This document shows, piece after piece, positions 1,776 through 39,106 of a DNA stretch of 39,106 bases. Within the stretch, counting starts at the first letter, position 1, and every line of letters starts with the position of its first letter. The notes below the pieces were generated by a model that saw nothing but the letters and a program-made list of their open reading frames with translations, did no database searches and was not told the origin of the DNA. The stretch comes from Candidatus Omnitrophota bacterium. GTDB taxonomy: Bacteria > Omnitrophota > Gorgyraeia > Zapsychrales > Fredricksoniimonadaceae. The position numbers and the translations under genes are program-made. The stretch lies in NCBI GenBank assembly GCA_015233375.1, contig JADFXW010000006.1, positions 1 to 39,106 of the forward strand. Direction: 5' to 3'.

Positions 1776-4700
1776 CTAAAATGCGCCAGGCCCATCTAAG
1801 AATCGTCGCAGACTCATCAGAGGATACCAACCGATTATATCTGGAGACAATCCTACGATAGGTTTTAGGGAATGCAACATGGCCCTATCAAAACGCCATT
1901 GGATGCGACCATGAGAGACTTGCGTTTGTAAATCCTTATCTGCGCGGCTTAGGTCAATACCCCCCTTATAGCCCAAAGCTAAAGCATTGGCCTTCATAGC
2001 CCCATTTCTGCCCAAAGGATGCCCCCCTTCTTCATCTATAAAATGAATTCTTTGTTTCAAACTTTCCGGAAAGTCTTTTTTGCCCAAGACAAGGACAAAA
2101 GGACGGCCACTATACGTCCTGAATTCTTTTTCCAAAACTCTTAGAAACTGCATTTGTGGAAAAAGTGTCGTCTCATAATCTAATCGATTCTCCTGAAGCC
2201 ATCGACTAAATTGTTGTTGATCGAAATGAAAATATCCCTTTAAGTTTATCGAACTTTGAATCTGTCCCAATTGCTTTGTTGCCAAATACTGTAGGACATG
2301 TTCCATATCTTTGGTATCCTGTCTGCCTGCCACGACCAAACAATACGTCTCCAAGCCTACAGGCGTAATCTGATAAATATCTGTATCAGTCCCATGATAA
2401 ACCCTTTCCCAGCGACCATTCAAAAATCTCATATTATTTTGTAACCCCATCAATGATCTTCCCTCTAAATCTGTGTCTCCTTTAGCCTGAATCAACACAT
2501 AAAAGCCTGGCCATCCAAAATTTCTATACTGTTGTAAATTCATAAAAAACTCATCCTGTGGCACAGGCAAATTGGTCATGGGCACCAATCCCACGTGTCG
2601 GTCACTTTGACTAATAACATGAAAGTGGACACTTGCTGTTATATCAAAGAGTCCAGGAGAAGCTAAAACTTGAGAAAGAGTCACCGGGGAACCATCTTCT
2701 ACGTGTCCATAAAACCGCATAGGCTCCTTCTGATTATCTAATTCATCAAATGAACGATTTCCATAATCAAAAGTAATCACATACCCCTTTTTTATGACAG
2801 AGCCGATCTTTTTAATCCAATCCATGGCCTGCAAATTGACAGCGAAGGTGCGTCCTTGGGCTCGTTTCTCCCAATCTTTTTCATCCTTGCCTCCCAAAAG
2901 CAGCTTTAAGTATTCCATAATTTTAGGATCACTGCATTTTTGCCAGGTCTCATATAACTCGCCTTGAGAAGTGGCGCCAATATAGGATTCAAGAATATTT
3001 CCATTTTCAAATTTAATTCTACGTACGGGAAAGGTATCAGGAAGCTCATTAGAAATAAAAACACCTTGTACCCCTGAAAAACTTTTATCAACATCAAGAG
3101 CTGACCCTTCTTTCCAGAACACTTTAATCCTTGTTTCTGGAACCCCCAAGGAAATGTCTTCAGGTATAGGGATTTTATTGTCACGGAAAAGATCTTTTTG
3201 AATTTTAATAAGTTCGGGGCTAATCTCAAGGATAGTATACTTAATAGCCTGATACAATGAAGGGTATTCTTCTTCTATTTCCTTCAAAATATCCCGCGCC
3301 AAAATTCCTGTACCCGCTCCCATTTCTATAACCTCAAAATGTGCAGGAGAGCCCATATTCTCCCACATTTCATTCAATTGTTTGGCTACCCCCCTGCCAA
3401 AATAAGGGGACATTTTAATAGGAGCTGTATTAAAATCGTTTTTTTCTTCTGAATCTTGTGTCCCAAATTTGACGGCGCCTGAGGTATAAAATCCCAATTG
3501 CGGTGCATATAAACTCATCCTCATGAATTGTTCAAATGGGATAGCTCCTTCGTTTTGATGGATCTCCTTGATGATAAGCTGCTTTAGAGCATCCAGTCTT
3601 TTGGAATCATCCGCCTTGTGTAACATGGCCCTGTTATTCCCCGCAGAACGCATAGCCGCAGTAACCACCACTTCCCCAGAAGTAACAGCATTGTTGATTT
3701 GTAAAAGAACTTCCTGAGGAGCTGTTTTACTATCAAAAACAACCATTGCAGCTCCATATCCAAGGTTCGTTTCTTCTCCTTTTTCAAAGAAATGCAGGGA
3801 AACTCCTCCTGAAAAATATTTCCTTGGAATGGTCTTTTGAGTTGCAAGGTCTTGTTCTTCTTTAATGTAGTTGTAGACGCCTTTTTTGAAGGCCTGGAGG
3901 TAGCGTTGGTAGATGAGTTCGATGTCATTTGGGGCATTCTTACGTGTTGTTTTCACATTCAACGCTCTTTCGCTTGGCCACGCCATTGCCCTGGTTGGCA
4001 ACGCTAAAATAACACTTTGTTTATATTCCACACCGATAACCTTATTTTTATCCGCGTATACTTGAGATAAAATACTGTCCTTAATTTTCTTCTTGTACCA
4101 CGTGGCTAATATTAATGAATTGTATACTTGTCGTAATTGAGCAAAATTCTTGTTTTCATTAACCTCTTTTGTCAGTTGTGGAATAACGATTTCGCGGATA
4201 ATTTTTGAGCCCAAGGCGTTGATTTCTCTGATTGGCGTACGGGGGTTTCCCTGGGATGCTTTCATATTCAATGCTACTTCGCCAGGCAACGTGCTTGGGG
4301 ACACGTCCCTGAAAAACGGGACATGTCCCCTGGTTGGCATTAGGTTTTTACTCATAGCTAAATAATCCTCTTCAAGCATCACCTTTAATTTTGCCTCAAC
4401 CACATACGCGGCCCCTGCCTTTTCATTCTCAAACACCTCCGCCTTCTCGGGCACTATCCACACCTTGTTAAAGGTGTTCACTGGCACATTCGTTGTCCCA
4501 AAACGCTTCCCTGCTTCTTCATAGACTCGCTTCCAAAATTTCTTGCCAACAGCACCTTCTGGATAAATTAAGGACGCTGTCATTTGCTTTAAGATATAAT
4601 CTTCTGCCAGAAGGTCTCGCCCCATTTCAGTGAGCCCAAAACTATGCGGGATGATACGGTTTTTCTCATAAGGAGAGAGATTGACCCACAAATCTTTTTC

Positions 4701-5057
4701 TGGGATTGTTATGCTGGCCAGGAAGTATTTGATGAGTTTGGTGACTTCGTTCTTTTGTTGTTGGTTCTGGATTCCCGCTTTCGCGGGAATGACAGAAGAA
4801 GAACCAGGAATGACATTAGACTCACAGGGAATGACACCTCTGTCACCTGTATCCAAAACAAAATCAAAACGAAATGGATTATCTGGATAAACCTTAAGGC
4901 CTTTGAGGATGGGAGGATTAAATACCGAACTTTCATGCACCAGGACACCAGGCTTGGGCAATACCCACTCATCTGCTTGGGACAATGGCGTAAAATCTAA
5001 AAAATTAGCCATGAATACCCATAAAATAAAAAGATGAAGAATAAATGATTTATTCAC
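1776..5057 (-). CDS. Large exported protein with MidA-type SAM methyltransferase domain
   Basis: This 1093-residue protein starts with a hydrophobic signal-like stretch (residues 4-24, ending near PLSQADEW). An N-terminal region of about 450 residues follows; I recognise it as typical of large Omnitrophota proteins but cannot assign a function. Residues about 495-810 form a MidA/COG1565-type methyltransferase, with the family opening IPFEQFMRMSLYAPQLGFY, the SAM-binding EMGAGTGILARDIL near 577, and YTILEISPELIKIQ. The last 250 residues are unassigned. Known MidA proteins methylate an arginine of a respiratory subunit inside mitochondria. Export of such an enzyme would be odd because SAM is cytoplasmic, so the N-terminus may instead be a membrane anchor. 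Residues 89-97 (VIPAKAGIQ) and 243-253 (GHVPFFRDVSP) are translated palindromic repeats. A promoter is proposed at 5107-5136. Confidence 0.8.
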   Translation of the reverse strand: MNKSFILHLFILWVFMANFLDFTPLSQADEWVLPKPGVLVHESSVFNPPILKGLKVYPDNPFRFDFVLDTGDRGVIPCESNVIPGSSSVIPAKAGIQNQQQKNEVTKLIKYFLASITIPEKDLWVNLSPYEKNRIIPHSFGLTEMGRDLLAEDYILKQMTASLIYPEGAVGKKFWKRVYEEAGKRFGTTNVPVNTFNKVWIVPEKAEVFENEKAGAAYVVEAKLKVMLEEDYLAMSKNLMPTRGHVPFFRDVSPSTLPGEVALNMKASQGNPRTPIREINALGSKIIREIVIPQLTKEVNENKNFAQLRQVYNSLILATWYKKKIKDSILSQVYADKNKVIGVEYKQSVILALPTRAMAWPSERALNVKTTRKNAPNDIELIYQRYLQAFKKGVYNYIKEEQDLATQKTIPRKYFSGGVSLHFFEKGEETNLGYGAAMVVFDSKTAPQEVLLQINNAVTSGEVVVTAAMRSAGNNRAMLHKADDSKRLDALKQLIIKEIHQNEGAIPFEQFMRMSLYAPQLGFYTSGAVKFGTQDSEEKNDFNTAPIKMSPYFGRGVAKQLNEMWENMGSPAHFEVIEMGAGTGILARDILKEIEEEYPSLYQAIKYTILEISPELIKIQKDLFRDNKIPIPEDISLGVPETRIKVFWKEGSALDVDKSFSGVQGVFISNELPDTFPVRRIKFENGNILESYIGATSQGELYETWQKCSDPKIMEYLKLLLGGKDEKDWEKRAQGRTFAVNLQAMDWIKKIGSVIKKGYVITFDYGNRSFDELDNQKEPMRFYGHVEDGSPVTLSQVLASPGLFDITASVHFHVISQSDRHVGLVPMTNLPVPQDEFFMNLQQYRNFGWPGFYVLIQAKGDTDLEGRSLMGLQNNMRFLNGRWERVYHGTDTDIYQITPVGLETYCLVVAGRQDTKDMEHVLQYLATKQLGQIQSSINLKGYFHFDQQQFSRWLQENRLDYETTLFPQMQFLRVLEKEFRTYSGRPFVLVLGKKDFPESLKQRIHFIDEEGGHPLGRNGAMKANALALGYKGGIDLSRADKDLQTQVSHGRIQWRFDRAMLHSLKPIVGLSPDIIGWYPLMSLRRFLDGPGAF
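3951..4000 (-). repeat. Short interspersed coding repeat, copy without hairpin
   Basis: The minus strand has TGCCAACCAGGG at one end and a block encoding ERALNVK at the other. Both recur at 4260-4339 in the same gene (first block identical over 12 bases, second about 19 of 23 identical). The interior here is about 30 bp shorter. Confidence 0.6.
4260..4339 (-). repeat. Short interspersed coding repeat, copy carrying an extra hairpin
   Basis: This is the second copy of the repeat seen at 3951-4000, with the same end blocks (TGCCAACCAGGG; coding EVALNMK). It is 80 bp instead of 50 because its interior contains the palindrome at 4297-4330. It is in frame within the methyltransferase gene. Confidence 0.6.
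4297..4330. repeat. Palindromic GGGGACAYGTCCC hairpin inside a CDS
   Basis: GGGGACACGTCCC (4297-4309) and GGGACATGTCCCC (4318-4330) form a 13-bp stem with one C/T difference and an 8-nt loop. Each arm is itself nearly self-complementary. The element is read in frame as GHVPFFRDVSP. I recall similar palindromes dispersed in many bacterial genomes. Confidence 0.7.
4771..4790. repeat. REP-like palindrome (VIPAKAGIQ type) inside a CDS
   Basis: ATTCCCGC-TTTC-GCGGGAAT is a perfect 8-bp stem with a 4-nt loop. Read on the minus strand it encodes VIPAKAGIQ. The same palindrome occurs at 27123-27142 between pstS and pstC. Partial GGAATGACA copies follow at about 4807-4835, giving the repeated VIP residues in the protein. 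Confidence 0.8.
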
Positions 5058-18804: not shown

Positions 18805-20235
18805 TTAAAACTTCACTGCAACAGAGGCAAGCGCCTGGCTTGCGGCTTTACGATTAATATTCGAGAACGCATCAGCTGGCATAAACCAGCCTAAGACCAA
18901 ATTAAAATCAACATCTTCAGAATAACTATATTTGAGTTTCACATCGTATTCATTACCCAATCCCCTCTGCCCCTTGTTCTTGGTATCAGGATAAAGATAA
19001 AGATAATAATTTGGTTGAGTCATAGACAACTCATTGTTATCACCAAAACTATCTGCGGCCCAAACATTGCTCCATGTAAAAGACGCCTTCACATCTTGCA
19101 AAAGATCGACGGAAGCGCCCGCTGATAAAACATTCAAATTTCCCAGATTAAACAGAGTTCCATAAATCGTTCCCGCGCCAAAATCACTCATAAAGGAATG
19201 CCATTGAGTGTAATATTTGGCATCTTTTGAATCGCTGCTGCCGTAATTAGTCTCTGCCATCTTATCACCAGACATATAGGTATACGCCACATTAACAGAG
19301 GGTTTATATTTTGTCATAACAGGAAGCGCGTAGGTGGCCATCACTTGACCAGCCATTGCCCTCCGTTTTTCTGCCGCAGTCACAATATCATCCACTGTCT
19401 GGTTGCCAAATTGCATCGCAAACTCACCTTGAATGTTTAACCCTTGGAATGGATTTGTACTAAAACGGAATCCCGGAATATACCACTTGTCGCCCTTGTT
19501 AGCCACCCCATCAACAATAATCGTTTCTTCTCGACCAGCAATACCTGCGAACATGTATTGCTCTAAGACAGTGTTCCAGGAATCGTTGAGCTGATAATTA
19601 AGATTATAGCCATAAACATTAATACTTTGACCGCTTGTTAAATTAGCCAATCCACGCACTGAATCCAATGTCTGAACAAGCTTAAAATAAACTAAATCGA
19701 TGGTCAAAGGTTTATAATCCAAAACAACCTTGACACCATCTGCGGATCTTCTTAACGACAAATCCTGGTCAATATACGCCAAAGGGCCATTGCCTAAATT
19801 AAAATTATTATTGCCAATAATAAACCCATTTCCATAATAAAATATCTGACGCCCCACCGTAATGCTTAACGGTGAATATAAAAATTCACGCAAGGTGATA
19901 GAGGCTAAATACAACTGAACATTAGTGTCATTCGCATAATTCGTGTTATTATCACTACTGTTCTCATTATTCCACACCCTCTCATTAATCAAACCAACCG
20001 TCGTTGACACATTATCCGTAAGGTCTGCATCAATACGAAGACGTGTTTGAGTCAAAAAGATATTCTGACTTTTAAGACCATGATTCACCGCTTGTGTCGT
20101 GGCCATCCCTAAATCAAAATCCTGACGATCCACAAACGACGTTGTAATGTCCCCGCTAATCTTAACATTTTGAACAGCCGCAAAAGCAGGGACCACAAAA
20201 ATCATCATAAAAACCATCACTAAGAACTTTTTCAT
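18805..20235 (-). CDS. Alginate-export-type outer-membrane porin, paralogue 3
   Basis: This 476-residue beta-barrel precursor has a signal peptide (MKKFLVMVFMMIFVVPAFAA, cleaved near AFAA-VQN). It then has long stretches of alternating hydrophobic strands and ends in Phe (SVAVKF), as outer-membrane proteins do. Conserved blocks include FLTQTRLRIDADLTDN, TNYANDTNVQLYLAS and LREFLYSPLSITVGRQ, typical of the alginate_exp family. These proteins are probably channels for sugars or other small solutes; alginate itself is only the family name. It is the third of three tandem paralogues. A strong GGGGGAGGGG ribosome-binding site precedes the start and a terminator follows. Confidence 0.85.
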   Translation of the reverse strand: MKKFLVMVFMMIFVVPAFAAVQNVKISGDITTSFVDRQDFDLGMATTQAVNHGLKSQNIFLTQTRLRIDADLTDNVSTTVGLINERVWNNENSSDNNTNYANDTNVQLYLASITLREFLYSPLSITVGRQIFYYGNGFIIGNNNFNLGNGPLAYIDQDLSLRRSADGVKVVLDYKPLTIDLVYFKLVQTLDSVRGLANLTSGQSINVYGYNLNYQLNDSWNTVLEQYMFAGIAGREETIIVDGVANKGDKWYIPGFRFSTNPFQGLNIQGEFAMQFGNQTVDDIVTAAEKRRAMAGQVMATYALPVMTKYKPSVNVAYTYMSGDKMAETNYGSSDSKDAKYYTQWHSFMSDFGAGTIYGTLFNLGNLNVLSAGASVDLLQDVKASFTWSNVWAADSFGDNNELSMTQPNYYLYLYPDTKNKGQRGLGNEYDVKLKYSYSEDVDFNLVLGWFMPADAFSNINRKAASQALASVAVKF

Positions 20236-20258
20236 TAGACCCCTCCCCCTTTTGATAA

Positions 20259-20294
20259 ATTTCCCCCGTCCAGGTTTCCCTGGACGGGGGAAAT
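20259..20294 (-). promoter_or_regulatory. Intercistronic hairpin between porin paralogues 2 and 3
   Basis: TTCCCCCGTCCAGG and its complement form a perfect 14-bp stem (16 with flanking A/T) with a four-base loop that reads GAAA in minus-strand RNA. No U tract follows; the next ribosome-binding site comes at once. It more likely stabilises the upstream mRNA or tunes downstream expression than terminates fully. Confidence 0.75.
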
Positions 20295-20320
20295 AATACG
20301 TTTAATGGATTTCTCCAGAA

Positions 20321-21748
20321 TTAAAACTTAACGGCAACATTGGCAATGGCCTGGCTTGCCGTATCCCTATTGGTATTAGCTAACGCGTCTCCAGGAATAT
20401 ACCAGCCAACAGTAGCACCAAAAGACACGTCTTCGGTGTAATCATACTTTACATTGACATCATATTCATTCCCCAACCCACGGCGATTTGCCTTTGTTAC
20501 AGGATTATAAACACTTAACCCTGAGTTAGGCTGAAACATATCAAGCGGGTTATTAGTTAAATTATATGCATCTGCTGCCAATAAATTCGTCCATGTGAAA
20601 GACGTTGTCACATCTTCTATGGGGCTTACGGAAGCTCCTGCAGAAAAAATGTTCATATTAGATGCGGCAAATAACGTACCATAAATGGTACCTGCCCCAA
20701 CATCCCCCATGAACGGATCCCACGCGGTGTAGCGTTTAGCATCCTTTGAACCAGAACCTGAATAGTTCCGATTAGCCATCTTATCACCTGAAAGATAGGT
20801 ATAAGAGGCATTTAAGGTGGGCTTATATTTAGTTAACACCGGCAATGAATACGTTGCCATCAACTGGGCCGCCATCGCATGACGAGGCTCCGCCGTCTCG
20901 GAACCAGAATCATCGATAATCTGGTCTCCCATCTGAAGAGCGAGCTCACCCTGGAGATTTAACCCTTTTATAGGATTAGTGCTGACATGAAACCCCGGGA
21001 TAAACCATTTTTCTCCCTTGTCTTGAGCTCCCACATAAGCTTTACCTTGAACACCAATAAACACATACTGCTCAAGGACCGTGTTCCAGGCATCATTTAA
21101 CTGGTAATTGGCATTGTACCCATAAATATCAGAACCTTGGCCGCTTTCTAAACCAGCCAAACCTCGAATAGAATTATTACTCTGCGCATGTTTGATATAA
21201 ACTAAATCAATGGTTAATGGTTTATAATCCAATACAGCCTTGACACCATCCAGACCTTTTCTCATGCTCAAGTCTTTAGTAATATACTCTAAACTCCCGG
21301 AGTTTTGAAGATAACTGTTATCACTAATAACAAGCCCATTGCCATAATGAAATAATTGACGCCCAATCGTCACGCTCAGCGGAGAATACAAGAATTCACG
21401 CAAGGTGACAGACGCCAAATATAACTGCACGTTTGTATCATTAGCGTAATTGGTTTTCCCTGCAGAATCACTGCTGTTTTCAGCATTCCACACACGCTCA
21501 TTAATCAAACCAATAGTGGTGGAAACGTTATCCGTCAGATCCGCATCCACACGAAGGCGGGTTTGCGTTAAAAAAATATTCTGATTCTTAAGACCAACAC
21601 CGACCCCTGCTTGATTGAGACCAAGATCAAAATCATTCCTTCCCACAAAAGAAGTCGTGATATCCCCGCTTACCTTAACATTTTGAACAGCCGCAAAAGC
21701 CGGAGAAGACAACACCATCATCAATGCTATAACTATAAATTTTTTCAT
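20321..21748 (-). CDS. Alginate-export-type outer-membrane porin, paralogue 2
   Basis: This precursor of about 475 residues has signal peptide MKKFIVIALMMVLSSPAFAA and the same blocks as its neighbours (FLTQTRLRVDADLTDN, TNYANDTNVQLYLASVTL, SPLSVTIGRQLF), again ending NVAVKF. It is close to paralogues 1 and 3 along its whole length, with differences concentrated in segments between strands (for example residues 40-55 and 240-290), the expected extracellular loops. The start is ATG 21748, with GGGAG 8 nt upstream; the preceding in-frame TTG is less likely. Flanked by a hairpin on each side. Confidence 0.85.
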   Translation of the reverse strand: MKKFIVIALMMVLSSPAFAAVQNVKVSGDITTSFVGRNDFDLGLNQAGVGVGLKNQNIFLTQTRLRVDADLTDNVSTTIGLINERVWNAENSSDSAGKTNYANDTNVQLYLASVTLREFLYSPLSVTIGRQLFHYGNGLVISDNSYLQNSGSLEYITKDLSMRKGLDGVKAVLDYKPLTIDLVYIKHAQSNNSIRGLAGLESGQGSDIYGYNANYQLNDAWNTVLEQYVFIGVQGKAYVGAQDKGEKWFIPGFHVSTNPIKGLNLQGELALQMGDQIIDDSGSETAEPRHAMAAQLMATYSLPVLTKYKPTLNASYTYLSGDKMANRNYSGSGSKDAKRYTAWDPFMGDVGAGTIYGTLFAASNMNIFSAGASVSPIEDVTTSFTWTNLLAADAYNLTNNPLDMFQPNSGLSVYNPVTKANRRGLGNEYDVNVKYDYTEDVSFGATVGWYIPGDALANTNRDTASQAIANVAVKF

Positions 21749-21768
21749 CAATCTTTCTCCCGTTTATA

Positions 21769-21806
21769 AATTCCCCCGCCTAAGGTTTCCCTTAGACGGG
21801 GGAATT
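21769..21806 (-). promoter_or_regulatory. Intercistronic hairpin between porin paralogues 1 and 2
   Basis: TTCCCCCGCCTAAGG (21771-21785) pairs with CCTTAGACGGGGGAA (21790-21804), again around a loop that reads GAAA on the minus strand. The one non-Watson-Crick pair is a G-U in minus-strand RNA but a C-A mismatch on the other strand, so the structure belongs to the porin mRNA. The stem sequence differs from the hairpin at 20259 while pairing is kept. Confidence 0.75.
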
Positions 21807-21833
21807 GATGAGTTCTACTGGATTTCTCCAAAA

Positions 21834-23294
21834 TTAGAACTTAACAGCAACATCGGCGATGGCCTGGCTTGCTGTATCACGATTCAGATTGGATAAAGCA
21901 TCACCAGGAACATACCAACCAACAGTGACACCGAATGAAACATCTTCGGTATAATTGTACTTGACGTTGACATCATACTCATTACCTAATCCCCTCTCAC
22001 CGGTTGTCTTGGTGGCAGGATTAAGAACGCCAGTACCCTCATTGGGTTGAAAGATTAAAAGCGGATTATTGGTATTATAGCTATCCGCTGCCCATAAATT
22101 GCTCCATGTAAAGGAAGCTGTAACATCTTCCAAAGGACTTACTGAAGCTCCCCCTGAAAGAATATTTAAGTTGCTCATTGGATACAAGGTGCCATAAATA
22201 GTACCTGATCCAATACTGCCTTCCAAAGGACTCCAAGCAGTAAAATGCTTAGCATCCTTATCGCCTGATGCGGAATAGTTCTCATACTGCCTCTTATCAC
22301 CAGAAAGATAGGTGTAAGACATATTCAATGTCGGCTTATATTTGGTTAAAATCGGCAAAGAATAAGAGGCCATCACTTGAGCGGCCATGGCACGAACAGG
22401 CTCAGCAGCAACCTTGTTGTTTTGTTTCACGTTCTGATCACCTGCCTGGAACGCTAACTCGCCTTGAATATTCAATCCTTTAATAGGATTGGTACTGGCA
22501 CGTAACCCAGGAACATAGAGCTTATTCCCTTTATTTTCACCAGCAATACCAATACTATCACAATTGTTTAAACACCCTTTCCCTATAATACTAGAGAACA
22601 GGTATTGTTCCACAACGGTATTCCAAGCATCATTTAATTGATAATTAAGGTTATACCCATAAACACTGGAACTTTGACCACTGCGTAAACCTGCTAACCC
22701 TCGAATTGACTGTACTGACTGTTGACTCTTGAAATAGATCAAGTCAATGGTTAAAGGCTTATAATCCAAAACAACCTTAACACCATCATTAGCAGCTCTC
22801 AAATTCAAGTCTTGAGCAACGTACTGTAATGGACCAGAACCTTGACTGGCTGGACCATTACCCAGGACCAAGCCATTGCCATAAATAAAGGCCTGACGCC
22901 CAACAGTTACAGTTAACGGAGAATACAAAAACTCACGTAACGTCACTGTTGCCAGATACAACTGCACGTTTGTATCATTAGCGTAATTGGTATTTGCATC
23001 AGAGTTGTTTTCAGCATTCCACACACGCTCATTAATTAACCCAACAGCAGTGGACACATTATCCGTTAAATCAGCATCCACACGAAGACGGGTTTGTGTA
23101 AGAAACATGCTTTGACTCTTAAGACCAGTATCATCGGCATTACCTAATGCACCTACACTGGTCATGCCTAAATTAAAGTCATTACGATCTACATAGGAGG
23201 CGGTAATGTCTCCGCTAACCTTCACGTTTTGAACAGCCGCGAAAGCCGGAGCAGCCAAAACCACCATTAAAGCTGCAACTAATATTTTCTTCAT
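21834..23294 (-). CDS. Alginate-export-type outer-membrane porin, paralogue 1
   Basis: This 486-residue precursor has signal peptide MKKILVAALMVVLAAPAFAA and the family blocks FLTQTRLRVDADLTDN, TNYANDTNVQLYLATVTL and SPLTVTVGRQAF, ending ADVAVKF. It is slightly longer than the other two because of an insert near residues 245-262 with two cysteines (KGCLNNCDSIG), which could form a disulphide in an external loop. A GAGGGAG ribosome-binding site precedes the ATG. It is the promoter-proximal gene of the porin cluster, with a 216-nt leader. Confidence 0.85.
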   Translation of the reverse strand: MKKILVAALMVVLAAPAFAAVQNVKVSGDITASYVDRNDFNLGMTSVGALGNADDTGLKSQSMFLTQTRLRVDADLTDNVSTAVGLINERVWNAENNSDANTNYANDTNVQLYLATVTLREFLYSPLTVTVGRQAFIYGNGLVLGNGPASQGSGPLQYVAQDLNLRAANDGVKVVLDYKPLTIDLIYFKSQQSVQSIRGLAGLRSGQSSSVYGYNLNYQLNDAWNTVVEQYLFSSIIGKGCLNNCDSIGIAGENKGNKLYVPGLRASTNPIKGLNIQGELAFQAGDQNVKQNNKVAAEPVRAMAAQVMASYSLPILTKYKPTLNMSYTYLSGDKRQYENYSASGDKDAKHFTAWSPLEGSIGSGTIYGTLYPMSNLNILSGGASVSPLEDVTASFTWSNLWAADSYNTNNPLLIFQPNEGTGVLNPATKTTGERGLGNEYDVNVKYNYTEDVSFGVTVGWYVPGDALSNLNRDTASQAIADVAVKF

Positions 23295-35187: not shown

Positions 35188-36249
35188 TTATGTCTTGTTC
35201 TTTTTAAGCAAGCCTGTGTGCATATAATTCATGGTAATGCTGGCAATATAAACAGACAATTGCATTAAGGCCACTGTCTTATCTCCAGCGACAATCATGT
35301 GCCGCTCTTTGACCCGCAATGCAATCTTCCTTAATAAATCACTGATTATATATTTACGCTCTCCCGTGCATCGGTCAACACTATTTAAAATATTCTTAAA
35401 ATGTGTCCTGATAAGAGCTTCTGCCGTTATCATCCCTTTGTCTTTAATCCGCTCCTTGCTAAAGGCCCACCACTCCTCATCCGTGAGCGGCGTGAATATT
35501 TTTTCTAATTGATCGTCATGGAAATCAGGAAAATTCTCCTGACCCTGTTGATGTTTCTTTTTATAATATTTTTCCAGGGTCATGGTCAAATTCTGCTGTT
35601 GCCAAAGTTTTTTCCCCTTAGGCTTCAAGGGCATTTGCCCTTTTAGCCCGGAAAACAGACTGTCCACATACTCTAATTTCTCAAGGGCCTTCCACCCTTG
35701 ATATTTAGCGCGCCAATCAATCCCTGGTGTTAGCCATACAGCAAAGGTTTCAACAAAGTCTTCGTCTGGATGATACTGAGCGTAGAACCCGTCAAGATGA
35801 TGCACATAACTTTTGCTGTAGGGCTTAAATTTATAAGACCCGCTGTATTCTTTTTTAGGAGAACCAAACACCTTCTTCCATTCTTTTTTCTTGTGTAAAT
35901 CATAGGCATAGGAAAAGGCATGGCCTGCTTCATGGCGCAAAAGCTGCATACACCATAAATGCCCCTCCCCTTCAGCCTCAAGCATCATGCGCCGCTCAAG
36001 CCTAATCAAGGCAGGATGCGCCAAATAAAAGGGTATCCCAATCGCCACCTCTCCCTCTGGGGTCAACCATTCATCAGCCAAATAACATTCTGGATGAAAC
36101 ACCAAGCCCTTGGCATCAATCTGGGCATAAAGTTCTTTAACACAAGATTCCAGCCAAGTCCCCTCGAGCACAAGAGGAAGGTCCTTGATACTGGTCTTTA
36201 ATAATTCTTCTTCAGAAATGGTTTCAAGATCAATGTGATTGGGGGTCAT
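35188..36249 (-). CDS. Putative zinc-binding metallopeptidase
   Basis: This protein of about 353 residues has the zinc motif HEAGHAFSYAYDL (HExxH with catalytic Glu) and, about 60 residues later, DEDFVETFAVWLTPG, whose Glu is the probable third ligand. This matches the 'putative zinc-binding metallopeptidase' family. No signal peptide is seen, so it is probably cytoplasmic. The frame is open to 36294 (MMPKNCF), but I prefer ATG 36249 (MTPNHIDLE); neither has a clear ribosome-binding site. It overlaps the preceding hypothetical gene and lies 3 nt before the Ddl-like ligase, so the pair is probably made together. Confidence 0.8.
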   Translation of the reverse strand: MTPNHIDLETISEEELLKTSIKDLPLVLEGTWLESCVKELYAQIDAKGLVFHPECYLADEWLTPEGEVAIGIPFYLAHPALIRLERRMMLEAEGEGHLWCMQLLRHEAGHAFSYAYDLHKKKEWKKVFGSPKKEYSGSYKFKPYSKSYVHHLDGFYAQYHPDEDFVETFAVWLTPGIDWRAKYQGWKALEKLEYVDSLFSGLKGQMPLKPKGKKLWQQQNLTMTLEKYYKKKHQQGQENFPDFHDDQLEKIFTPLTDEEWWAFSKERIKDKGMITAEALIRTHFKNILNSVDRCTGERKYIISDLLRKIALRVKERHMIVAGDKTVALMQLSVYIASITMNYMHTGLLKKNKT

Positions 36250-36868
36250 TGGAATACTGCTTTTGTAGCCTCTGAAGCAATTCTTCGGCATCATTGAGGA
36301 TCTTGGGATCAGCCAACTTTAATGTGTCCATGTCTTTTTTAAAAACCCTTAAGGCGGACATAAGACGGCGGACACTCTGCTCATGACGGGCTTCACGCTC
36401 TTCCTCAGGGTTTACTTTTTTGCGTTCTTTAATGATAGCGGTCAAATCTTTACGGACAACAGAGGCTTCCTTGCCTTTTTCAAAAATATCCTTCCGTAAT
36501 TTTGTATAATCATCTCGGGTTAATTCTTTTTTGGTACGAGCCAAACGCAAAACATCCAAGCCCTCAACTCCTGGGACATGGACCGTTTCCCGTTCTTTCG
36601 CGAACTCCTTCTTTAAATAAACAGGCTCGTCCTGCTCCACAAAAAAGTAAGTCTTGACCAACTTTAAAGCCAAGGGTTTTTTAAGGCCAAGTTCCCTAAT
36701 CACATAATCTTCAAATTTTTCAAAACCCCAACCTAGATACAACTTATCTCGCCAAACACCATAAAGCCCCTGGCCTAATTCAATCCACGATAACTTAAAA
36801 TTTTTGGCATACAAGGCGATATGCGCACGAAGCGCATCAGAAGATTCCATCATAGAGCTCATAGTCAC
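36230..36868 (-). CDS. Hypothetical helical protein
   Basis: I do not recognise this 212-residue protein. The N-terminal half contains ALYAKNFKLSWIELGQGLYGVWRDKLYLGWGF-like segments that look like a small helical DNA- or protein-binding module (WGFEKFEDYVIRELGLKKPLALKLVKTYFFV). The C-terminal half is strongly charged and predicted coiled coil (REARHEQSVRRLMSALRVFKKDMDTL). The annotated start is GTG; ATG codons two and five residues on are alternatives. It overlaps the metallopeptidase start by about 20 nt and follows the surface-protein C-terminal piece by 8 nt. Confidence 0.6.
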   Translation of the reverse strand: MTMSSMMESSDALRAHIALYAKNFKLSWIELGQGLYGVWRDKLYLGWGFEKFEDYVIRELGLKKPLALKLVKTYFFVEQDEPVYLKKEFAKERETVHVPGVEGLDVLRLARTKKELTRDDYTKLRKDIFEKGKEASVVRKDLTAIIKERKKVNPEEEREARHEQSVRRLMSALRVFKKDMDTLKLADPKILNDAEELLQRLQKQYSNDPQSH

Positions 36869-36876
36869 TTTTTCTA

Positions 36877-37488
36877 TTAATTGAGAGTGTTATCCGTCAC
36901 CTCTGTCCCACCCCATTCAACGACCGTGAAACCTTGACGTTTAAATGGTTTGAAGACTTGAGGCTTGACGGCCATTGGTTGAGTTAAAGGTTGGTACACC
37001 ATCAACACCCTTAACAGGCTATCCGGTTTTGGTGTTATATTCATCTGGGCTATTTGGGCATATTCTGTTTGAGCAAAATGAATTAAATTGTATTTATTGA
37101 CCATTAATCTCGGATACCAATAAACAATAAATTCATTATACTCTCGTGGTGTAAAGCCCATGGACCTTAAAGCTTCCTTTAAGAATTGCTCTGTCTTTGA
37201 ACCCTCTACAACAAATCCTTCTGACATATCATAGCTCTTTTTCCCTTTTCCTTCCCAGAATATATAACTATATTCTTGATTATCAGCAAGATTAATCACC
37301 TTCCCATCAGGAAACGCCTTAATATTCCATCCTTGAAGAACAGGATTATAGGGAGGATAAGAAACAACAATATCGCCTGCATATTCAAGACGCACAGATA
37401 TTTTCTCTTCTTTAGGAGGATAAAAATAAATCACAGGTTTACCTACTCTCCATGAGTTGAGTTTCCTCCCCCTCCAGTAGTGCCACAA
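36877..37488 (-). CDS. C-terminal domain of a surface protein (KPVIYFYP-type), in a shifted frame
   Basis: The 203-residue frame opens at a TTG with no convincing ribosome-binding site. From NSWRVGKPVIYFYPPKEE on it matches a domain I know from many candidate-phylum proteins: SYPPYNPVLQGWNIKAFPDG, YIFWEGKGKKSYD, NEFIVYWYPRLMVNKYNLIHF split in two motifs, ITPKPDSLLRVLMVYQPL, and RQGFTVVEWGGTEV. In those proteins it is normally the end of a longer secreted or surface protein. The Cys-rich frame just upstream runs into it in the +0 frame and stops at 37443, so this is probably the severed end of that protein. The function of the domain is unknown. Confidence 0.7.
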   Translation of the reverse strand: MWHYWRGRKLNSWRVGKPVIYFYPPKEEKISVRLEYAGDIVVSYPPYNPVLQGWNIKAFPDGKVINLADNQEYSYIFWEGKGKKSYDMSEGFVVEGSKTEQFLKEALRSMGFTPREYNEFIVYWYPRLMVNKYNLIHFAQTEYAQIAQMNITPKPDSLLRVLMVYQPLTQPMAVKPQVFKPFKRQGFTVVEWGGTEVTDNTLN

Positions 37489-38750
37489 ACTCCCCCATTA
37501 CAGCTTCCCCCTGGGCAAGGCGCTTGCCCCCATTGCCCGCAAGCAGGACCAGGACAAACATCAGCGACATCGGGTGCCCCATATTTACACGTATGACCTG
37601 GTTTACATGAGGTTTGGCCAGCACCTCCGCAGACATTAGGTGCTGTATAACAATTACTCCCTGTGCAATTACATATGCCTTGATAACTACAACCAACCCC
37701 TCCCTCATTACATAAGCCTCCTGAGCAACAGAGTTGTCCATAGCCTCCGCATATTGTACAACTACCTGCAGAAGTGGAATCATTATTACAAATGCCGAAA
37801 CAACAAAGACCAACACCACCCTGGCACTTGCTCCCACATCCATTGCAATTATTAGGATCTGTCTGAAGACTCGTACATTGACCATTACAACAGGCGCCAG
37901 CGCAAGGTTGACCGTTACAAGTCCCTCCTGTTCCTGTACCAGATCCTGTCCCGCCACCACCGCCACATTTAGACCTACCGCCGTCTGTACTACAGGCGCC
38001 ACAACATCCACCACCACCCGCACAGCTACCAACATAATTCCCGTCCCCAACACACGCGACACACTGACCTTGACTATTAGCTTTTGTTCCTGGAGGACAA
38101 GAAGTACAAGTACCCCCACCGCAAGATGTTCCATTAGGACAGACATTACCACAACTGCCACAATTGTTATTATCACCCTGAGGATTTACACAAGCACCGT
38201 TACAAGAAATACCAGGAGCCTGACACCCATTCCCTGTTCCTGTACCTGTTCCTGTACCACAATTCACCTGACACTGCCCACTACAACAATTTTGGCCGCC
38301 AGGGCACATATTATTACAAACGCCACAATTAGCACGATCCGCCCCCATTGTATTCAAACACTGACCATTACAACAGGTCAAATTAGGAGGGCATGGTTGA
38401 GTTGGACTACACGATGAGACTACTAAACAGGTTCCGCTGCCTGGATCAAAATTTGTCCCTGCAGGACAAATACACTGACTTCCGTTAAAACAAACCATCC
38501 CAGATCCACCTGCACAAGCAACACCATCACAGCATGGTTGCTGATAACCACCACATGGAGATCCTGTACCCTCTAAACAAGGACAAACATTACCCGCATC
38601 AGGTGCCCCATATTGACACGCTTGCCCATTTAGACAAGCCGGTTGACCACATCCACCACACGGACCAGGAGGTGTGGCACAATTATTCCCTTGACAATTA
38701 CATATGCCTTGCGGACTACAACCAATCCCTGGATCATTACATAAACCTCC
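37443..38750 (-). CDS. Cys-rich repeat segment of the surface protein
   Basis: This is the longest uninterrupted piece of the Cys-rich frame (about 435 codons after the TAA at 38751). The first ATG is at 38498, inside a repeat, so it is not a natural start. The sequence is built of disulphide-type repeats such as CCNGQCLNTMGADRANCG, GACVNPQGDNNNCGSCG and CCNGQCTSLQTDPNNCNGCG, with GTGTGTG spacers. It resembles eukaryotic-like cysteine-knot repeats found in bacterial surface proteins. It ends STHGE-stop where the conserved C-terminal domain begins in another frame. Confidence 0.6.
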   Translation of the reverse strand, partial: GGLCNDPGIGCSPQGICNCQGNNCATPPGPCGGCGQPACLNGQACQYGAPDAGNVCPCLEGTGSPCGGYQQPCCDGVACAGGSGMVCFNGSQCICPAGTNFDPGSGTCLVVSSCSPTQPCPPNLTCCNGQCLNTMGADRANCGVCNNMCPGGQNCCSGQCQVNCGTGTGTGTGNGCQAPGISCNGACVNPQGDNNNCGSCGNVCPNGTSCGGGTCTSCPPGTKANSQGQCVACVGDGNYVGSCAGGGGCCGACSTDGGRSKCGGGGGTGSGTGTGGTCNGQPCAGACCNGQCTSLQTDPNNCNGCGSKCQGGVGLCCFGICNNDSTSAGSCTICGGYGQLCCSGGLCNEGGVGCSYQGICNCTGSNCYTAPNVCGGAGQTSCKPGHTCKYGAPDVADVCPGPACGQWGQAPCPGGSCNGGVCGTTGGGGNSTHGE

Positions 38751-38753
38751 TTA

Positions 38754-39092
38754 ACAGCAGGGAGCTCCAAATGCTCCACACCCTGTACAAGCACCAGCAA
38801 CCCCTCCCATATCACACTGGCCTCCACAACAAGCAACACCACCAATGGCATAGCAACTATTCCCACAAAAACCACAATTCACAGGATCTACGTGAGTATT
38901 GGTACATGTGCCATTACAACAGGATGAGCCAACAGGGCAAGTAAGACCATTACAAGTCTCTCCTGTCCCAGTCCCAGTTCCTGTACCTGAACACAGACAA
39001 ACTCCATGTCCCGGTGTAGTATCAAAGGGGCATCCTTCAGGACAAACACACTGGCCTCCAAAACCTCCAACTAATGATAATCCTCCACAATG
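38754..39092 (-). pseudogene. N-terminal-side Cys-rich fragment between two in-frame stops
   Basis: This is 113 codons of the same frame between TAA 39093-39095 and TAA 38751-38753. It encodes FGGQCVCPEGCPFDTTPGHG, a GTGTGTGTG spacer, and CNGLTCPVGSSCCNGTC, ending at GAFGAPCC-stop. It contains no start codon placed where a protein could begin, so it is a fragment of the larger gene. Confidence 0.55.
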
Positions 39093-39106
39093 TTATTCAT
39101 GTGGGG

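Follow-up and report, generated by a model that had tools for sequence, protein, structure and literature searches.

An in-frame TAA codon in an internally duplicated, cysteine-rich gene at the contig end of an Omnitrophota draft genome

The cysteine-rich gene that runs off the end of the window (the whole stretch of DNA analysed here, 39,106 nucleotides) is interrupted by an in-frame TAA stop codon at 38751..38753 on the minus strand, and the position of the interruption can be read from a diverged duplicate within the same gene, which carries TCA at the matching codon. A recent and real inactivation in the assembled strain, brought about by a point mutation and one or more further frame breaks, is judged the probable cause, if only modestly so. 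It is favoured over an assembly error.

The interrupted array and its internal duplicate

The window corresponds to the full length of contig C176, which belongs to a draft genome of 1.76 Mb (209 contigs, 64% complete). The contig ends within the cysteine-rich gene, the 5' end and N-terminus of which are located off the contig, and no contig continuing the gene was found in the bin. On the minus strand, the part of the array upstream of the stop (38754..39092) comprises 113 open codons with 21 cysteines, and the part downstream (37446..38750) comprises 435 open codons with 75 cysteines in Stig1-like repeats, the array frame being closed by a TAG at 37443..37445. The downstream part scored over the Pfam curated cut-off for the Stig1-like repeat family PF04885 (25.5 versus 24.1 bits), and the upstream part, at 19 bits, scored below it. 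Repeated CxxxxCC.G.C...NCG.CG..C units are common to this array and the Stig1-like proteins, although the array here is longer and interrupted, and the Pfam description of the family is based on proteins of the plant stigma. Residues 109-245 of the downstream part also matched the MXAN_6577-like cysteine-rich protein (NCBIfam NF041328, E 6.6e-9), but membership of that family was rejected, the score of 35.8 bits being far under the NCBI cut-off of 100. Orthologues of the array were found neither in 54 relatives, nor in 384 genomes of the phylum, nor in IMG/VR. It was also observed that another protein with cysteine-rich and EGF-like repeats (L095) apparently runs into a Hint-type autoprocessing motif (CSCFVSGTKVLLADG...).

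The minus-strand codon 38753..38751 translates directly as TAA in the frame of the array, with the local protein reading GAFGAPCC-stop-GGLCNDPGIGCSPQGICNC. The cysteine pattern is preserved on both flanks and GC3 is similar on the two sides (0.26 after the stop, 0.23 before it). The frame is interrupted within preserved coding sequence, between 113 and 435 open codons, as in a pseudogene. Between the stop and the contig end there are 353 bases. A scan of the frame after it found no ATG, GTG or TTG until 38498, which is 84 codons on. The nonsense codon that a sequence-only reading had claimed at this place was borne out by both the translation and the duplicate; the dashes in the peptides given in that reading proved to be ordinary residues (P and G), with the frame and the stop as claimed.

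Both copies of the internal duplicate are on the minus strand, copy A at 38505..39068 with the stop and copy B at 37491..38042, where the peptide reads GGYGQLCCSGGLCNEGGVGCSYQGICNC and TCA (37724..37722) takes the place of the TAA. The two codons are 1,029 bases (343 codons) apart, the same spacing as that between the DNA copies. The protein alignment of the copies scored 494, whereas 300 shuffled versions of the second region averaged 158 and never exceeded 222; the duplication is far above chance. In DNA, the ungapped 223-base stretches 38577-38799, which spans the stop, and 37548-37770 share 71% identity. The copies are approximately 49-58% identical in protein, with 52 of 101 residues differing on the upstream side of the stop and 32 of 77 on the downstream side. 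Since dN/dS between the copies is 0.42 after the stop and 0.64 before it, the part after the stop appears to have been at least as constrained as the part before it for most of the time since the duplication, a comparison that does not date the stop itself.

It had been proposed that a single base change explains the stop. TCA to TAA is indeed one step and the neighbourhood aligns in register, and TCA would be the simplest guess for the ancestral codon. The proposal is one of parsimony from a single diverged paralogue, however, and the residue preceding the glycine varies among the repeats. More generally, an internal duplicate can locate a nonsense codon where no orthologue is known.

The C-terminal domain and the extent of the damage

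Behind the array, and in another frame, lies an ORF (36877..37488, minus strand) with TTG as its only start and a conserved C-terminal domain, termed here the KPVIYxYP domain. The domain proper occupies 36880-37446 (minus strand, 189 codons) and begins with KPVIYFYP; its structure was modelled with a mean pLDDT of 95. It keeps 53 of 59 nearly invariant residues, and the remaining six are conservative changes. The two frames conflict, an observation made directly on the sequence: a TAA at 37498-37500 closes the domain frame upstream and the TAG at 37443-37445 closes that of the array, and the frames would need joining within 37443..37500 (minus strand), the probable site of a frame break. The domain follows 29 or more in-frame residues in each of 79 homologous segments, compared with fewer than 20 codons in the window, and inspection of the sequence ahead of the domain in this ORF revealed no export signal.

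Disulphide-rich arrays and domains of the KPVIYxYP type are normally exported. On the simplest reading, array and domain would belong to one exported protein that was split by a frame break between 37443 and 37500. Among the domain homologues, no combination of a long Stig1-like array with the domain was recognised from cysteine counts and the last 60 residues. Their N-terminal parts are in many cases short and signal- or lipoprotein-like; others have greater length, and a moderate cysteine content is seen in a few (L028, with 31 cysteines).

A scan of genome contigs recovered at least 563 coding stretches related to the domain from many bacterial groups, of which 80 loci were kept, and in these it appears to be mostly C-terminal in apparently exported proteins. 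The domain matched nothing in Pfam or NCBIfam. Fold comparison against the PDB gave no match (best E 0.48, TM 0.18), a profile search of PDB sequences gave chance-level matches only, and fold comparison against BFVD recovered one giant-virus protein model (A0A3G4ZNZ8, E 9e-12). This widespread, confidently folded and unnamed domain may merit a study of its own and is of more interest than the stop.

If the lesions exist in the living strain, as we infer, and not in the assembly alone, the window would hold the 3' portion of a gene whose product is a large, exported, cysteine-rich protein with Stig1-like repeats, an internally duplicated region and, probably, the KPVIYxYP domain at its C-terminus. 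A point mutation would have given rise to the premature stop codon (TAA), with one or more additional frame breaks setting the C-terminal domain apart from the array. Translation from the missing 5' end would then halt at 38751, with the loss of approximately 435 codons, which make up the greater part of the visible array, and of the domain. The export of this protein and its fusion with the domain are inferred, as is the link to type IV pili considered below.

The 435 codons after the stop and the 189-codon domain offer 267 possible single-base changes that would create a stop, and none is present. Under neutral decay, no more than about 0.034 substitutions per site would have accumulated since inactivation (95%), a bound which assumes that the array part and the domain were released from selection simultaneously. 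The mutation had been called recent on the grounds of intact cysteine spacing; within this bound the description is supported. The dN/dS values concern the time since duplication, not that since the stop.

The stop had also been treated as the sole lesion. A frame break at the 3' end is probable and a third defect at the contig edge possible, which would bring the number of breaks in the gene to two or three. The third is a second in-frame TAA (39093..39095, minus strand), approximately 12 bases from the contig edge, around which the residues look as though the frame slips. It may be real or may be contig-end noise, and no weight is placed on it here. Because the 33 neighbouring genes (11,608 codons) carry no visible damage, the defects cluster in the cysteine-rich gene.

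Genomic setting and a possible pilus connection

The next gene (36233..36868, minus strand) is conserved in the genus and, by comparison with congeners, marks the insertion site of the cysteine-rich gene. In three congeners it is preceded not by the cysteine-rich gene but by a small lipoprotein gene, which we read from its sequence as a putative peptidoglycan-binding type, and by pilus-type ATPase genes; in two others only 200-360 bases lie upstream of its counterpart before the contig ends. Because the three congeners are without it at this site, the cysteine-rich gene has the appearance of an insertion specific to its lineage, in a gene order that is otherwise conserved. Its GC3 is 0.23-0.26, compared with 0.40 in the other genes of the window. 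The low GC3 and the absence from three congeners would fit a dispensable, recent acquisition.

The best match to the lipoprotein gene in the window's own genome is on the syntenic partner contig C187 (G000, L118:270-2862), where it is followed by two prepilin-like genes, one with a sub-threshold match to Pfam N_methyl, and by a transposase (DUF772/DDE). This stretch may be the other side of the insert in the window, and the synteny suggests that C187 and C176 were once joined.

Three prepilin proteins from the same Omnitrophota family (L093, L096 and L101) carry Stig1-like arrays directly behind a prepilin-like N-terminus. In contrast to these, the window gene has its N-terminus beyond the contig, and a prepilin fusion is a candidate only. 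By analogy, the protein may plausibly act on pili or at the cell surface. If the inactivation is real, it adds one more case of a single strain of an uncultured bacterium losing a surface-protein gene, here at a site which varies among the species of the genus. The case opens no new mechanism.

Two features elsewhere in the window were also noted. A peptide (VIPCESNVIPGSSSVIPAKAGIQNQQQ) at approximately 4780-4900, within the ORF 1776-5057 (minus strand), resembles an in-frame insertion of a short palindromic repeat element into a long gene. At 18805-23294 (minus strand) there are three tandem paralogous genes of 476-486 amino acids, signal-peptide-bearing and probably encoding porin-like proteins.

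Competing explanations and comparison with known pseudogenes

Several observations favour recent inactivation. The stop and the duplicate are in register, and the part after the stop retains its cysteine pattern, a similar GC3 and a dN/dS of 0.42. The KPVIYxYP domain appears well kept but to have lost, or never to have had, a start of its own. Counting against inactivation, the gene is repetitive and located at a contig end, where assemblies are least reliable, the species is represented by one genome, and the searches for an orthologue recovered none. Both stretches also look undamaged apart from the stops.

The same features give weight to an error in the assembly or consensus, by which the gene would be intact in the living strain, with low coverage, a mixture of strains or the collapse of repeats near the contig end having produced the stop and the frame break. 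This explanation had earlier been listed just as a way of refuting the mutation, and it deserves to be treated as a serious rival, possible although less probable than inactivation. Spurious internal stops are common in bacterial assemblies (PMC11017572); the genome here is a draft metagenome assembly in 209 contigs, the contig ends inside an internally repeated gene with an odd TAA about 12 bases from its edge, and the coding stretches are otherwise well preserved. On the other hand, 353 bases separate the stop from the contig edge, and the 3' frame conflict is approximately 1.6 kb away from it. A generally poor consensus is unlikely because the 33 other genes of the contig are intact, and the copies differ by approximately 29% in DNA and are therefore not easily collapsed.

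It is improbable that two or more separate working genes are present, with a shorter cysteine-rich protein ending at the TAA and the downstream parts translated, perhaps by coupling, from start codons of their own, such as ATG at 38498 and TTG at 37488. The ORFs from these starts are open for 351 and 203 codons, and a Shine-Dalgarno-like TAAGGAGGT overlaps the stop with an ATG at a suitable distance. That ATG is out of frame, however, and its ORF closes after 35 codons, so that a restart at the stop was rejected; most of TAAGGAGGT is accounted for by two glycine codons, and chance is the best reading of it. Reinitiation further on is unlikely because the next in-frame start is 84 codons away and the product would be without a signal peptide, and neither downstream ORF has an export signal.

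A bypass of the stop by readthrough, a suppressor tRNA or programmed frameshifting, yielding the full protein, is more doubtful still. The sequence-only reading had offered it as an alternative on the basis of the cysteine pattern, which is intact on either side of the stop, and a -1 shift between 37443 and 37500 would connect the array with the domain. The suggestion gained no support: TAA is the commonest terminator in the window, closing 18 of the 30 genes checked, and readthrough would leave the other frame break or breaks unrepaired, so that one gene would need two independent recoding events. No classic X XXY YYZ slippery heptamer was seen by eye in the overlap. A reassignment of TAA was rejected on the same count of normal terminators. 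That the gene is functional and completed by recoding throughout, with TAA readthrough and a -1 frameshift near 37443-37500 adding the KPVIYxYP domain and giving short and long forms of a surface protein, is barely credible.

Recent inactivation thus keeps its place as the favoured explanation. The cysteine-rich gene resembles ordinary bacterial pseudogenes, and equally the spurious pseudogenes of draft assemblies (PMC11017572), in having an internal stop and a probable frame break within preserved coding sequence. Unlike in those cases, the lesion here was located by means of an internal duplicate and not by an orthologue.
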